In this document: piece after piece, positions 1,924-8,993 of the stretch
Layout: each line of letters starts with the position of its first letter
Numbering within the stretch: position 1 is the stretch's first letter
Source: Syntrophales bacterium
GTDB taxonomy: Bacteria > Desulfobacterota > Syntrophia > Syntrophales > UBA2192
DNA: 10,133 bases
NCBI GenBank assembly: GCA_025454095.1
Contig: JALOPC010000141.1
Span: 1-10,133, forward strand
Direction: 5' to 3'
Notes under the pieces: model-generated
Told to the model about the DNA's origin: nothing
What the model saw: only the letters and a program-made list of their open reading frames with translations
The model's database searches: none
Made by a program: the position numbers and the translations under genes

Positions 1924-2727
1924 ATGGGATCGTACAGGGATTTTGCCGCGGAACTGGCGCTGGAGGCAGGGCGTTTCCTCAAGGGAAGATTCAACACGGC
2001 GCACGACATCACCTACAAGGGGGAGATCGACATCGTGACGGAGGCCGACCGGGGCTGCGAGGCGCTGCTGATCGCGCGCATCGAGAAGGCCTTCCCGGGT
2101 CACGGGATTCTTGCCGAGGAGACGAGAGGGGCGGCCGAGACGAGGGAGTTCACCTGGATCGTCGACCCCTTGGACGGGACCACGAACTACGCGCACCACT
2201 ACCCCGTGTTCTGCGTCTCCATCGCCCTGCAGCACGGAGGCGAGGTCATCGCCGGCGCCATCTGCAACCCGATGCTGGAGGAGCTCTTCGTCGCAGAGAA
2301 GGGCGGGGGGGCCTGCCTGAACGGGCAGCGCCTCGCCGTCACGAAGACGGCCGAGCTGACGCGGAGCCTTCTCTCCACGGGCTTTCCCTACGACATCCGC
2401 GTCAACCCCGACAACAACATCAACTATTTCAACGCCATGGCCGTCCGGGCGCAGGCGATCCGGCGCGCGGGTGCCGCCGCCCTGGATCTGGCCTACGTCG
2501 CGGCAGGACGGTTCGACGGTTTCTGGGAGCTGAAACTGCACCCCTGGGACACGGCGGCGGGCTGCCTCATGGTGACCGAGGCGGGCGGGCGGGTGACGGA
2601 CCTCTTCGGCGGGCCCTTCAATCTTTACTCACCGCACGTCCTGGCGACGAACGGGAGGATTCACGAGGCCATGTCGGAGATTTTGAAGGAGACGGACCCG
2701 ATGGATGCGAGACTCGTGAAGAAATGA
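1924..2727 (+). CDS. suhB: Inositol monophosphatase family protein (SuhB-like)
   Basis: This 267-residue, Mg-dependent sugar-phosphate phosphatase most likely hydrolyses myo-inositol 1-phosphate. The family signatures are complete: VTEADR (38-43), GILAEET (61-67), motif A WIVDPLDGTTNYAHHYPVF (78-96) with metal-binding Asp81 and Asp84, and motif B HPWDTAAGCLMVTEAGG (206-222) with Asp209. The open frame extends back to 1771, but homology begins at MGSYRDFAAELALEAG, so the ATG at 1924 is preferred. An ATG at 1915 is possible, and neither has a strong Shine-Dalgarno. It converges on a myo-inositol-phosphate synthase, which supports a real inositol role. Relatives can also act on fructose 1,6-bisphosphate or PAP, so substrate specificity is inferred. 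Confidence 0.92.
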   Translation: MGSYRDFAAELALEAGRFLKGRFNTAHDITYKGEIDIVTEADRGCEALLIARIEKAFPGHGILAEETRGAAETREFTWIVDPLDGTTNYAHHYPVFCVSIALQHGGEVIAGAICNPMLEELFVAEKGGGACLNGQRLAVTKTAELTRSLLSTGFPYDIRVNPDNNINYFNAMAVRAQAIRRAGAAALDLAYVAAGRFDGFWELKLHPWDTAAGCLMVTEAGGRVTDLFGGPFNLYSPHVLATNGRIHEAMSEILKETDPMDARLVKK

Positions 2728-2832
2728 GGGTCTAGGGTATAGGGTCTCGGGTATAGGGAAGGTACTGCAGATTATTTTGTATAGACGGAATCTTCTTCCA
2801 TCCCGATACCCTAGTCCCGATACCCGATACCC
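2728..2832. repeat. Inverted repeat built from tandem 7-base units
   Basis: The left arm (2728-2758) is GGGTCTA, GGGTATA, GGGTCTC, GGGTATA, GGG. The right arm (2802-2832), read on the other strand, is GGGTATC, GGGTATC, GGGACTA, GGGTATC, GGG. The arms match at 25 of 31 positions in the same unit register and are separated by 43 bases. The element fills the gap between the convergent phosphatase and inositol-phosphate synthase genes and could form a long hairpin in either transcript. No T-tract follows, so it is not a standard intrinsic terminator. A 9-base direct repeat TAGACGGAA sits at 2782-2790 and 2857-2865. Confidence 0.85.
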
Positions 2833-4028: not shown

Positions 4029-4057
4029 CTATTACAACATATCGCGGGACAATTCAA
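4029..4057 (-). promoter_or_regulatory. Candidate promoter of the inositol-phosphate synthase gene
   Basis: On the minus strand, TTGAAT (plus 4052-4057) and TAATAG (plus 4029-4034) are 17 bases apart in a locally AT-rich stretch. Transcription would start near 4022, giving a leader of about 50 bases. The -10 match is only partial. It would let the synthase be expressed independently of rfbB. Confidence 0.35.
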
Positions 4058-4069
4058 CGGGAAGGACGC

Positions 4070-4096
4070 AAAAAGCTGCGGAACTCATTTTCCCGC
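4070..4096 (-). terminator. Possible weak terminator overlapping the rfbB stop
   Basis: On the minus strand GCGGGAA (plus 4090-4096) pairs with TTCCGC (plus 4078-4083) with one bulged G. After AGC it runs into TTTTT (plus 4070-4074). The rfbB stop codon lies in the loop. The stem is short, so this is tentative. Confidence 0.3.
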
Positions 4097-5168
4097 CGCC
4101 CCGTAGTGCTCGTCGATCCACTTGAGGTACTCGCCGCTGCGGACGCGGGTCACCCACCCGGCGTTTTCCAGGTACCAGAGGATCGTCTTGCGCAGGCCCG
4201 TGCGGAAGGACTCGAGGGGGGCCCATTTCAGCTCCGACTGCAGCTTGCTCGAGTCGATGGCGTAGCGCCAGTCGTGGCCGGGGCGGTCCGTGACGAAGGT
4301 GATCAGCTCGCGCCGGGGGCCTGCGCCGGCCCGGGGGCGGATCTCGTCGAGGATGTCGCAGATGCCGTGGACGACGGCGATGTTTTCCTCCTCGGAGTTG
4401 CCCCCGATGTTGTAGGTCTCGCCGCGGCGCCCGTGGTTCATGATCGTCCAGATGGCCTCGCAGTGGTCTTCCACGTAGAGCCAGTCGCGGACGTTCTTGC
4501 CGTCGCCGTAGACGGGAAGGGGCTTGCCCTCCAGGGCGTTGAGGGTGATGAGCGGGATCAGCTTCTCCGGGAACTGCCAGGGCCCGTAGTTGTTGGAGCA
4601 GTTGGAGATCGTCACGGGCAGCCCGTAGGTCTTGCAGTAGGCCCGCACGAGGTGGTCCGAAGACGCCTTCGAGGCGCTGTAGGGGCTGTTGGGCTTGTAG
4701 GGCGTCGTCTCGGTGAAGAGGCCTTCCTTGCCGAGGCTGCCGTAGACCTCGTCGGTGCTCACGTGGTGGAAGAGGCGGAAGCCCTCCGCGTGGTTGCGCG
4801 CCGCCTCGAGGAGGTTGAAGGTGCCCACGATGTTCGTGAAGATGAACTCGGCGGGCCGCTTGATCGAGCGGTCCACGTGGCTCTCGGCCGCGAAGTGGCA
4901 CACCGCGTCGATGCCGTACCCGGTGAAGATTGCGTCCATCCTCTCGAGGCTGCAGATGTCCTCCCGCAGGAAGACGTAGCGGCCGGGGTAGCGCTTTTCG
5001 AGATCGCTGAGATTTTCGGGGTTCCCGGCGTAGGTCAGCTTGTCCGTAGGTCAGCTTGTCCACGTTCACGAGCCGGCCCTCGAAGCCCGACTTCTCCAGC
5101 AGGGAACGGATGAAGTTGCTGCCGATGAAGCCGCAGCCGCCGGTGACCAGCAGGTTCTTGAATTCCAT
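4085..5168 (-). pseudogene. rfbB: dTDP-glucose 4,6-dehydratase, frameshifted by a 16-bp tandem duplication
   Basis: RfbB/RmlB uses NAD to convert dTDP-glucose to dTDP-4-keto-6-deoxyglucose for rhamnose and other deoxysugars of surface polysaccharides. The ATG at 5168 has AAGGAG upstream and encodes the Rossmann motif VTGGCGFIGSNF and VNVDKLTY. There the frame shifts because GTAGGTCAGCTTGTCC occurs twice in tandem (5030-5045 and 5046-5061). Removing one copy restores a continuous 355-residue protein, the normal family length. The restored protein has AAESHVDRS (88-96), the catalytic STDEVYG (132-138: Thr133, Asp134, Glu135) and YSASK (158-162: Tyr158, Lys162). As given, the first fragment runs on out of frame, and an internal ATG at 4939 could start only a 284-residue piece lacking the NAD loop. 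No rmlA, rmlC or rmlD is in the window. A sequencing or assembly error is possible. Confidence 0.93.
5030..5061. repeat. Exact 16-bp tandem duplication inside rfbB
   Basis: Two identical adjacent copies of a 16-base word lie at 5030-5045 and 5046-5061. Sixteen is not a multiple of three, so the extra copy shifts the rfbB frame just after the VDKLTY codons. Confidence 0.98.
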
Positions 5169-5223: not shown

Positions 5224-5323
5224 GAAGTTGCGAAGTTGGGAAATTGCGAAGCTTGGACGATTTCGAAGAGTTGTCAGATCGTAGGTCTGTCCGGGCTTCC
5301 CAACTTCAAAACTTCTCAACTTC
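5224..5323. repeat. Inverted repeat built from tandem 8-base units
   Basis: The left arm (5224-5256) is GAAGTTGC, GAAGTTGG, GAAATTGC, GAAGCTTGG. The right arm (5291-5323), read on the other strand, is GAAGTTGA, GAAGTTTT, GAAGTTGG, GAAGCCCGG. They match at 26 of 33 positions and are separated by 34 bases. ACGAT (5257-5261) and ATCGT (5278-5282) in the spacer could pair inside the larger hairpin. The element occupies the middle of the 289-base gene-free gap 5169-5457 between divergent rfbB and the small cysteine-rich gene. I see nothing else certain in that gap. Confidence 0.85.
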
Positions 5324-6558: not shown

Positions 6559-8541
6559 TCACGAGGCGGCGTAGCAGATCAGTTTCTGGTTGACCACGTC
6601 CGACACCAGCCTCAGGTCCTTTTCCCTGACATCGTAGACCCGGACCACCTTCTCGTAACGGCCCTCGTTCGGCAGCAGGTCGAGGAGCCGGTTGGGCAGG
6701 CTCTCGAGCCAGCCTTCGTTGAAGAAGACCCCGTCCTTTTCCGGGTAGATGGCCATGTAGAAGATGTCCGTCTCGACCAGGTCCTGGAAGAAGTGCGTCC
6801 CGAAGGAGAGGTCCGGGATGAGGCTCCCGTCGCGGTAGGCGATTTCCGCGATGACCGCGATCTTGCTGATCTCCGAAAACGTCACGGGAACCCCCATGGC
6901 CGGGGTGGTCGTCCCCCAGCGGCCGGGACCGAAGACCGCCGTCGGCATGTCCTCCCGCCGGTCGATCAGCTTGTTGAGGCGGCCCACGACGCGGGCGACG
7001 TCGTACTTTTCCGAGAGGGTCAGCTTCGTGTACCCTTTCGGGTCGATGTAGATGACGCGGGCCAGGGACTGGGAGACGCTGCCCCCCATGAAGTTGCCCT
7101 CCTGCCGGATGAAGACCTTCTTCCTGGCGATCTTCTCCGGGATCTCGACCTGGGCTTTTTGCCCCTTCGTCTGAAAGGGACGGCACTGCAGGAGATTGAC
7201 CTGGAGGAGGCCCTCGGCGTTGAAGTTCGCCGTGAACTCGATGTCGATGGGGTACTGGTACACCTTCTCGAGCTCCTTGAGCATCCGGGACATGACCGCC
7301 GTGAAGTCGGTCCGTGACAGCAGCTCGTCGAAGGTCAGGATCCAGACGTCCTCGCCGGGTCGGCCCGACGTCCGCATCCTCTCCGAGGTTTCCTCGTCCC
7401 GGACGCCGATCAGGTCCAGGCGGGCGTCGACCCCCTCGCTGATGACCTGCATGAGCGAAAGGGAGTGAAACCGGTTGTCCTCGAGGTTCAGCAGGTCCAC
7501 GTCGTGCTGCGAGAAGCGCCGGGCGTCGGCAATCCCGCCGTGCGACTTCACCAGGGGCGCGTCGAGGGCCACGATGCGGGGGTAGTCGTTCTCCACCCGG
7601 TTGACGGCGCGCGTCCCCATGCCGAACACGATGCGCAGCATCCCGGCCCGGGGGTCCATCCCCTGCTTCCAGACGAAGGGGTTGTAGGAGAGGCCCACGC
7701 CGGCCATCTCGGGGAAGAAGTAGTGCTTCCGGTAGGTGCCGGAGACGCGCTGGACGAGCAGGGCCATCTGCTCGTCGTGCTGGTCGAGGCCGCGCTGGAG
7801 CCGGTAGGTCAGGGCGTCCTCGTTCATCGTGCTGGCGAAGATTCGCCGCACCGATTCCTCGAAGAGCTCGTAGCGCCGCTCCGGCGTGCCCTGGTTGACG
7901 CAGAAGTAGCTCTCGTACTTGCCCGCGAAGGCATTGCCGAAGGCGTCCTCCAGGAGGCTCGAGGAGCGGACGATGATCGGCGACTGCCCGAAATACTCCA
8001 GCATCAGCTGAAACTGCTCCTTGACCTCCTGCGGGAACGTGCCGCTGAGCATCCTGGCCTTGAGCTCCCGGGCGCTCTCGAAGTACCCCTCCCGGGTCTT
8101 GTGGGCCATGAGGGTCTTCCACCAGCCGTTCTGCACGATGTAGGAGTAGAAGACGTCGGAGCCGATGAAGTAGGAGTCGTGCAGCTCCAGGTGCCGCGGC
8201 CAGTCGAAGTCCCTGTCCCTGCGCAGGATGTTGCGCGCCAGGAGCATGCCCACCGACTTGCCGCCGATGAACCCGGTGCCGATCAGGCGGTCCTTGATCT
8301 CCAGGATGTCCTGCAGGGTGAAGTACTCCTTCACGAGGGAGAGAATGCGCTTCTCCCGGCCGATCAGGACCCGCGAGAGCTGATCGACGAGTTCCCTCTT
8401 GTCCTCGGCGGCCGTGTCGTCCCCGGCAAGCTCCCGGGCCTTGAGGAAGATCCGGTCCCAGTAATCGAGGTGCCGCTCCGCGTCGACGGTGCTGCGGTCG
8501 GCCAGGGCGGCGAAGAGCCGCGTGGCGTCCACGCTGTTCAT
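6559..8541 (-). CDS. PEP/pyruvate-binding (PPDK/PEP synthase N-terminal-like) protein
   Basis: This 660-residue protein carries the ATP-grasp nucleotide-binding part of the PEP synthase/pyruvate phosphate dikinase family. Recognisable elements are IGGKSVGML (92-100), IIVRSSSLLEDAFGNAFAGKYE (189-210, matching the VRSS..ED..FAG signature), GMGTRAVNR (307-315), and the IDIEFTANFN...VNLLQCRPF strand that closes the ATP site. I find no phosphohistidine swivel motif and no C-terminal TIM-barrel PEP domain. It is therefore not a complete PEP synthase, and its phosphate acceptor is unknown. The N-terminal 90 residues and the last 190 are outside the recognised core. The ATG at 8541 overlaps the stop of the upstream KaiC-like gene by four bases (ATGA), implying translational coupling. 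Relatives may be one fused protein. Confidence 0.85.
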   Translation of the reverse strand: MNSVDATRLFAALADRSTVDAERHLDYWDRIFLKARELAGDDTAAEDKRELVDQLSRVLIGREKRILSLVKEYFTLQDILEIKDRLIGTGFIGGKSVGMLLARNILRRDRDFDWPRHLELHDSYFIGSDVFYSYIVQNGWWKTLMAHKTREGYFESARELKARMLSGTFPQEVKEQFQLMLEYFGQSPIIVRSSSLLEDAFGNAFAGKYESYFCVNQGTPERRYELFEESVRRIFASTMNEDALTYRLQRGLDQHDEQMALLVQRVSGTYRKHYFFPEMAGVGLSYNPFVWKQGMDPRAGMLRIVFGMGTRAVNRVENDYPRIVALDAPLVKSHGGIADARRFSQHDVDLLNLEDNRFHSLSLMQVISEGVDARLDLIGVRDEETSERMRTSGRPGEDVWILTFDELLSRTDFTAVMSRMLKELEKVYQYPIDIEFTANFNAEGLLQVNLLQCRPFQTKGQKAQVEIPEKIARKKVFIRQEGNFMGGSVSQSLARVIYIDPKGYTKLTLSEKYDVARVVGRLNKLIDRREDMPTAVFGPGRWGTTTPAMGVPVTFSEISKIAVIAEIAYRDGSLIPDLSFGTHFFQDLVETDIFYMAIYPEKDGVFFNEGWLESLPNRLLDLLPNEGRYEKVVRVYDVREKDLRLVSDVVNQKLICYAAS

Positions 8542-8993
8542 GATCGGTGGCGCCCCCGGAGGAGGGCGAAATAAGCCACCGTGTTGAGCTCGAAGAGGTA
8601 CGGGCAGGTGATCACGAAGAAATTGCCGATCATCAGGTCCGTCGCCCAGGCGAGCAGCAAGTCCGAGAGGGAGTCGAAGACGTAGAACACGTCGCGCCCC
8701 TCCTGGCGGATGATGTTGTGGACCTGGGTGGAGAAGGATTCGAACCCCGCGTCGGGGTTGAGCTTGTAGACGGCGATCTTCCGGGTTTCCTCGAGCAGGG
8801 GCGCGTGGCGGGCGAAACGCATGTAAACGACCCGCTCGTTGTTCGCGAGGGCCTCCCTGACGAAGGGCATGATGAAGCTCTGGTAATCCTCGATGGAGTC
8901 AACCTGCAGGACCACGTTGTCGCCTGTCTGCAGGTGACCGAGTACCCTGTCGAGTCCCTTGATGCCGGTGCTGACGCGGGAAAAGGATTTCAT
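8538..8993 (-). CDS. KaiC/RadA-like RecA-fold protein lacking a P-loop
   Basis: This 151-residue protein resembles the N-terminal half of KaiC-type RecA-fold ATPases. STGIKGLDRVLGHLQTGDNVVLQ (8-30) matches the usual TGI..LD..LGGL..G opening. The Walker A position reads VDSIEDYQS instead of GxxGxGKT, so ATP binding in the normal way is unlikely. A Walker B-like strand is present at VFYVFDSLSDL (102-112). It ends abruptly after ITCPYLFELNTVAYFALLRGRH, where KaiC-like domains usually continue. The ATG has AGAGG five bases upstream and a good promoter. It is the first gene of a two-gene operon and overlaps the PEP-synthase-like gene by ATGA. It probably serves as a regulatory or binding module for that protein. 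Confidence 0.78.
   Translation of the reverse strand: MKSFSRVSTGIKGLDRVLGHLQTGDNVVLQVDSIEDYQSFIMPFVREALANNERVVYMRFARHAPLLEETRKIAVYKLNPDAGFESFSTQVHNIIRQEGRDVFYVFDSLSDLLLAWATDLMIGNFFVITCPYLFELNTVAYFALLRGRHRS

Follow-up and report, generated by a model that had tools for sequence, protein, structure and literature searches.

The window, a stretch of 10,133 nucleotides analysed at its full length, is contig C126 of the draft genome G000 of a Syntrophales bacterium (2,207,381 bases in 377 contigs, 86.12 % complete, 3.05 % contaminated). Its minus strand carries a gene for a dTDP-glucose 4,6-dehydratase, rmlB, whose two parts lie in different reading frames on either side of a tandem duplication, as well as a second split gene, with a PPDK_N domain (Table 1). 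Six congeners (G001 to G006) and a relative from the same family (G007) were used for comparison. The neighbours of rmlB are an inositol-phosphate-synthase-like gene and a GAF/ANTAR gene, and the region is not a capsule locus. Upstream of rmlB, positions 5224-5323 form an imperfect inverted repeat with 35-base arms that are 80 % complementary. Pieces of it recur at many sites across the genomes of the genus, and a similar stretch of 113 bases is located between two genes in G004 and is absent from G006; possibly it is a dispersed palindromic element. Tracts of seven-base units of the AGGGTAT and CCCGATA types were observed between two genes of the window (2727-2758 and 2802-2832), and a CCCGATA-type tract is also present in locus L174 of G000.

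Table 1. Features of the window at the two interrupted genes
Feature	Positions	Strand	Basis
Exact 16-base tandem duplication, two copies plus one base; shifts the frame of rmlB	5029..5061	-	Tandem Repeats Finder
rmlB, N-terminal part ahead of the repeat; start ATG 5168	5062..5168	-	TIGR01181 positions 2-38 at 5040-5153; translation
Main part of rmlB, second frame; earliest possible start codon 4939	4085..5047	-	TIGR01181, PF16363, PF01370; ORF 4085-4939
Split gene, 660-aa C-terminal piece with the PPDK_N domain; the unsplit ORF of G002 and G004 has 863 aa	6559..8541	-	
N-terminal piece (151 aa) of the 863-aa ORF of G002 and G004	8538..8993	-	
Joint without 157 bases, out of frame	8547..8548	-	Bases present in G001, G002, G004 and G007

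Tandem Repeats Finder described the site as a repeat of period 16 with 2.1 copies and a match of 100 %. The exact 16-base duplication reported in a preliminary description of this DNA is thus present in the assembled sequence; its span had been given as 5030 to 5061, while the periodic stretch itself comprises 33 bases and begins at 5029. The duplication is not a product of chance, because its 33-base word, present once in the window, occurred in none of 200 shuffles, and an exact tandem with a unit of 12 to 60 bases, of which the window has one, was obtained in 1 of 100 third-order Markov resamples. With 33 periodic bases and a unit of 16, the edges of the duplication share about one base. 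A gross chimera at the repeat joint was rejected, as one contig of G002 is collinear with the whole length of the window. A plasmid search gave matches at 60-80 % identity only.

The main part of rmlB scored 436.9 bits against the TIGR01181 cut-off of 365.1 (profile positions 31-319 at 4148-5047), but no single uninterrupted frame joins it to the NAD-binding N-terminus. The frame opening at ATG 5168 encodes RmlB as far as the repeat, including a TGGCGFIG stretch that we take to be the NAD-binding motif, and then continues off-frame to a stop near 4034, 378 codons in total. In the second frame the earliest ATG, GTG or TTG is at 4939 and yields a product of 284 aa without the NAD-binding part. 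As assembled, the full RmlB is not encoded in any one frame, and the frameshift originally proposed for this gene was confirmed. The length of about 355 residues suggested for the restored protein agrees with the 355 aa of the intact relatives G002, G004 and G005, and no second lesion was present inside rmlB. A set of 109 rmlB loci, 29 picked by DNA similarity and the best 80 by the C-terminal part, some records being contained twice (e.g., L009 and L082), had the N-terminal motif in the same frame as the C-terminal part in 108 cases; the other locus is cut by a contig end. This common frame makes it highly improbable that the split gene still functions through a ribosomal frameshift at the repeat or a restart at 4939. 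Both parts are open and conserved, and ATG 4939 could start the shorter protein, but such an internal start would lose the NAD-binding N-terminus, and a slippery sequence was not seen by eye.

All five congeners with rmlB sequence at the repeat site had either a single copy or an unbroken frame. One copy is present in G002, G004, G005 and G006. In G001, where the gene is spread over two contigs, one frame crosses the site (profile positions 2-48), and the alignment there is 16 bases shorter than the query. G003, a genome 88 % complete, had no match above the RmlB cut-off. A search for the duplication pattern with any codon choice retrieved 1 of 155 genomes of the order, namely G000 itself, and none of the 154 others; nor was the pattern found in genome_contigs, from which the own genome may be left out. 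Exact tandems with a unit of at least 10 bases occurred in the searched region of 2 of the 109 rmlB loci, both upstream of the N-terminal motif. Among the best 80 matches to the main part, the closest named relative was Deltaproteobacteria bacterium isolate AS06rmzACSIP_61, a metagenome-assembled genome, with 90 % protein identity, followed by Syntrophobacterales and Smithella records. The organism is probably an uncultured anaerobe close to Smithella, and no sign of a pathogen was noticed. The comparisons at the repeat site bear on a maintained on/off switch, in which the 16-base duplication would be gained and lost in the population and would toggle the dTDP-sugar pathway. The anatomy, a frame-shifting tandem duplication inside a nucleotide-sugar gene, fits such a switch, and a mechanism of this kind has been published for pneumococcal capsule genes, according to the sections of PMC4022640 and PMC4243769 used here. 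The duplication is, however, found in no relative within the order and has just two copies, the single-copy relatives have no repeat tract at the site, and the neighbouring genes are not those of a capsule locus; a switch is an improbable explanation here.

By its dN/dS values, the main part of rmlB is under normal purifying selection. Ratios of G000 to G002, G004 and G005 were 0.17, 0.14 and 0.11, compared with 0.14, 0.14 and 0.11 among these three congeners; G006 was left out of the comparison. The N-terminal part, with 35 codons too short to judge, gave 0.08-0.27 for G000 and 0.02-0.13 among the same congeners. Since the gene has not decayed, the break is either very young or not real, and the initial view of a very recent or artefactual event was borne out.

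A second intact rmlB, which the preliminary description had proposed to look for, was not found above the family cut-off in a profile search of G000 (bin 86 % complete); apart from the gene's own N-terminal piece, the remaining TIGR01181 matches had at most 100 bits. A loss of the dTDP-sugar pathway was rejected as an explanation: rmlD is above its cut-off in all seven genomes of the genus, G000 included, and rmlA-like and rmlC-like genes, both scoring under their cut-offs, are present in six and seven of them, respectively. Contig C98 of G000 carries an rmlA-like gene together with an rmlC-like one, both open and again under the cut-offs. The split rmlA-like gene of G005 was likewise rejected as a parallel loss; it contains a run of 52 N in that assembly. 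In the same congener rpoC is split (G005:C56:4720-4724) with about 25 profile positions missing, which is probably another assembly defect.

The preliminary description had stated that no other damage was visible. This did not hold when a sample of G000 was scanned at the DNA level against sampled G004 for indels of at least 10 bases whose 60-base flanks were at least 80 % identical on each side. The sample consisted of 60 whole or nearly whole contigs (8 masked), the window, C98 and part of C234, together 368,342 unmasked bases or about a sixth of the genome. Five indels were detected in 150,617 aligned bases, and the length of four is not divisible by three. The window has two (+16, -157), C226 (locus L193) another two (-133, -123) and C229 (locus L194) one (-61). 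The -157 lesion at 8547 divides the PPDK_N-domain gene into its two pieces. The -133 lesion (about 18360 on C226) breaks the frame of the single dihydroorotase (pyrC) match of G000, and its bases are missing relative to both G002 and G004. This gene is whole in five of six congeners, with a partial match in G001, and dihydroorotase is expected to be essential. Compared with G004 only, a glycosyltransferase gene has lost its end and its stop codon to the -123 lesion (about 7400 on C226), and the -61 lesion (about 386 on C229) falls inside an OsmC-like gene. Each of the five lesions is sharply bounded within well-conserved DNA and, as far as compared, occurs in G000 alone; judged by eye, the edges share at most a base or two. 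For three of the lesions, the bases that the congeners have and G000 lacks were without a match in the sampled G000 sequence, which covers a minority of the 377 contigs. With further sharp indels in conserved genes on the same contig and on two others, a maintained switch was not supported.

The same scan of G001, G002, G003, G005 and G006 against G004 served as control and gave one event in 159,263 bases, between two genes, and none within a gene. Without the selected +16, the in-gene lesions numbered 4 in G000 and 0 in the controls (P = 0.056); without the window they numbered 3 and 0 (P = 0.10), two of the three being on one contig. The excess of in-gene lesions in G000 is suggestive only, and the broken single pyrC weighs more than the lesion rate. 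Small clean frame-changing indels were about equally frequent, 16 in 150,617 bases of G000 and 12 in 159,263 bases of the controls, thus the G000 assembly is not generally noisy. In a protein-level scan, the frame changed at 9 of the 97 gene places of G000 and at 3 of the 55 of the controls. The DNA scan was preferred because the protein-level scan took some antisense frames and so missed rmlB. Among the nine places, those in the window (-157) and in L193 (-133) were upheld by DNA. Five were set aside, as the G004 query frames match no Pfam family (L057, L179, L193 at 19461, L195 and L220), and the frame change in L175 is by eye at a stop/start boundary. L200 has a possible one-base deletion ahead of a glycosyltransferase domain and was left out of the lesion count. 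The three control places were L222, which is the run of N in G005, L219, which parallels L220, and L207.

A bin-wide excess of tandem duplications was not found: exact tandems with a unit of at least 14 bases numbered 3 in 358,749 bases of G000 (21,472 masked) and 8 in 400,000 bases of G004, overlapping rows being counted separately. In the sampled contigs of G000 the rmlB repeat is the sole exact tandem with a unit of at least 11 bases that shifts the frame of a gene. Unmerged overlaps are therefore rare at best. Concerning other conserved genes of G000, rpoC and one carB are whole, the match to dnaE covers 967 of 1022 positions, and another carB-like match runs to the end of its contig.

The rmlB duplication is, on the sequence comparisons above, probably an assembly artefact, an explanation that we hold with moderate confidence. 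Some contig joints in the draft bin would have been given a wrong overlap or gap. At the rmlB joint the ends of two contigs, having 16 bases in common, were probably set one after the other with the overlap unmerged, so that these bases would appear twice, and at the other joints the 61 to 157 bases between the contig ends would have been lost. The living organism would then have one copy and a working RmlB. This explanation is favoured because wrong overlaps or gaps at contig joints would account for all five lesions, for which we infer a single technical cause; natural decay would require that the loss of the only pyrC found is tolerated. Evidence against an artefact is that rpoC and one carB are intact and that duplications are rare in the bin; the small sample also counts against it. 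Assembly error had been named from the outset as the main competitor of a biological change, and given the further sharp indels it is the better of the two.

A real and recent spontaneous tandem duplication, caused by replication slippage or misrepair of a break, may instead have inactivated rmlB in the sampled strain with no role in switching. We regard this as possible and rather doubtful. The duplication is exact and clean, the remaining gene is intact, the contig is collinear with G002 throughout, other exact tandem duplications are rare in the bin, and the gene may be dispensable in the genus, as G003 (88 % complete) has no match above the cut-off. However, the single base or so shared at the edges offers little to start slippage, and the other sharp lesions in the assembly, one of them in the only dihydroorotase match, suggest a technical cause. 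If the duplication is an artefact, a clean frameshift in a draft bin has to be judged against the other sharp lesions of the same assembly before a biological reading is given; here, after a single scan for indels flanked by conserved sequence, the candidate switch became one among five joint-like defects.

In comparison with the RmlB/RfbB family (TIGR01181), the gene resembles its members in a main part above the curated cut-off and in the alignment of both parts with intact congeners; it differs in being split over two frames as assembled. We know of no report of capsule-type duplication switching in this environmental group. A duplication that is real and reversible, by which an uncultured syntroph-like anaerobe would turn a dTDP-rhamnose-type surface sugar on and off, would extend a known type of capsule switch to environmental anaerobes, a prospect that appears remote. 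In Streptococcus pneumoniae, reversible tandem duplications within capsule genes have been published (Waite et al. 2001, 2003 as cited in PMC4022640 and PMC4243769), thus the mechanism first proposed for rmlB would already be known and only the host would be new. In the sections of these sources that we draw on, the likeness is a direct tandem duplication that shifts the frame within the ORF of a surface-polysaccharide-related gene. The assembly of G000 has such an in-ORF duplication, and the same duplication is absent from the 154 other genomes of the order. The difference is that loss and return of the capsule are described there, whereas a single assembled sequence is considered here. For insertions of up to nine bases, PMC4022640 expects a reversion no higher than about 1e-5. 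A parallel for an assembly artefact is provided by false pseudogenes arising from genome assembly errors, documented in the abstract of Cooley and Wright 2024 (PMC11017572). The abstract treats frameshifts and internal stops generally, while a duplicated 16-base overlap is the inferred event in rmlB; in both cases an otherwise conserved gene of a draft genome has a frameshift, and the assembly contains other frame-breaking lesions.
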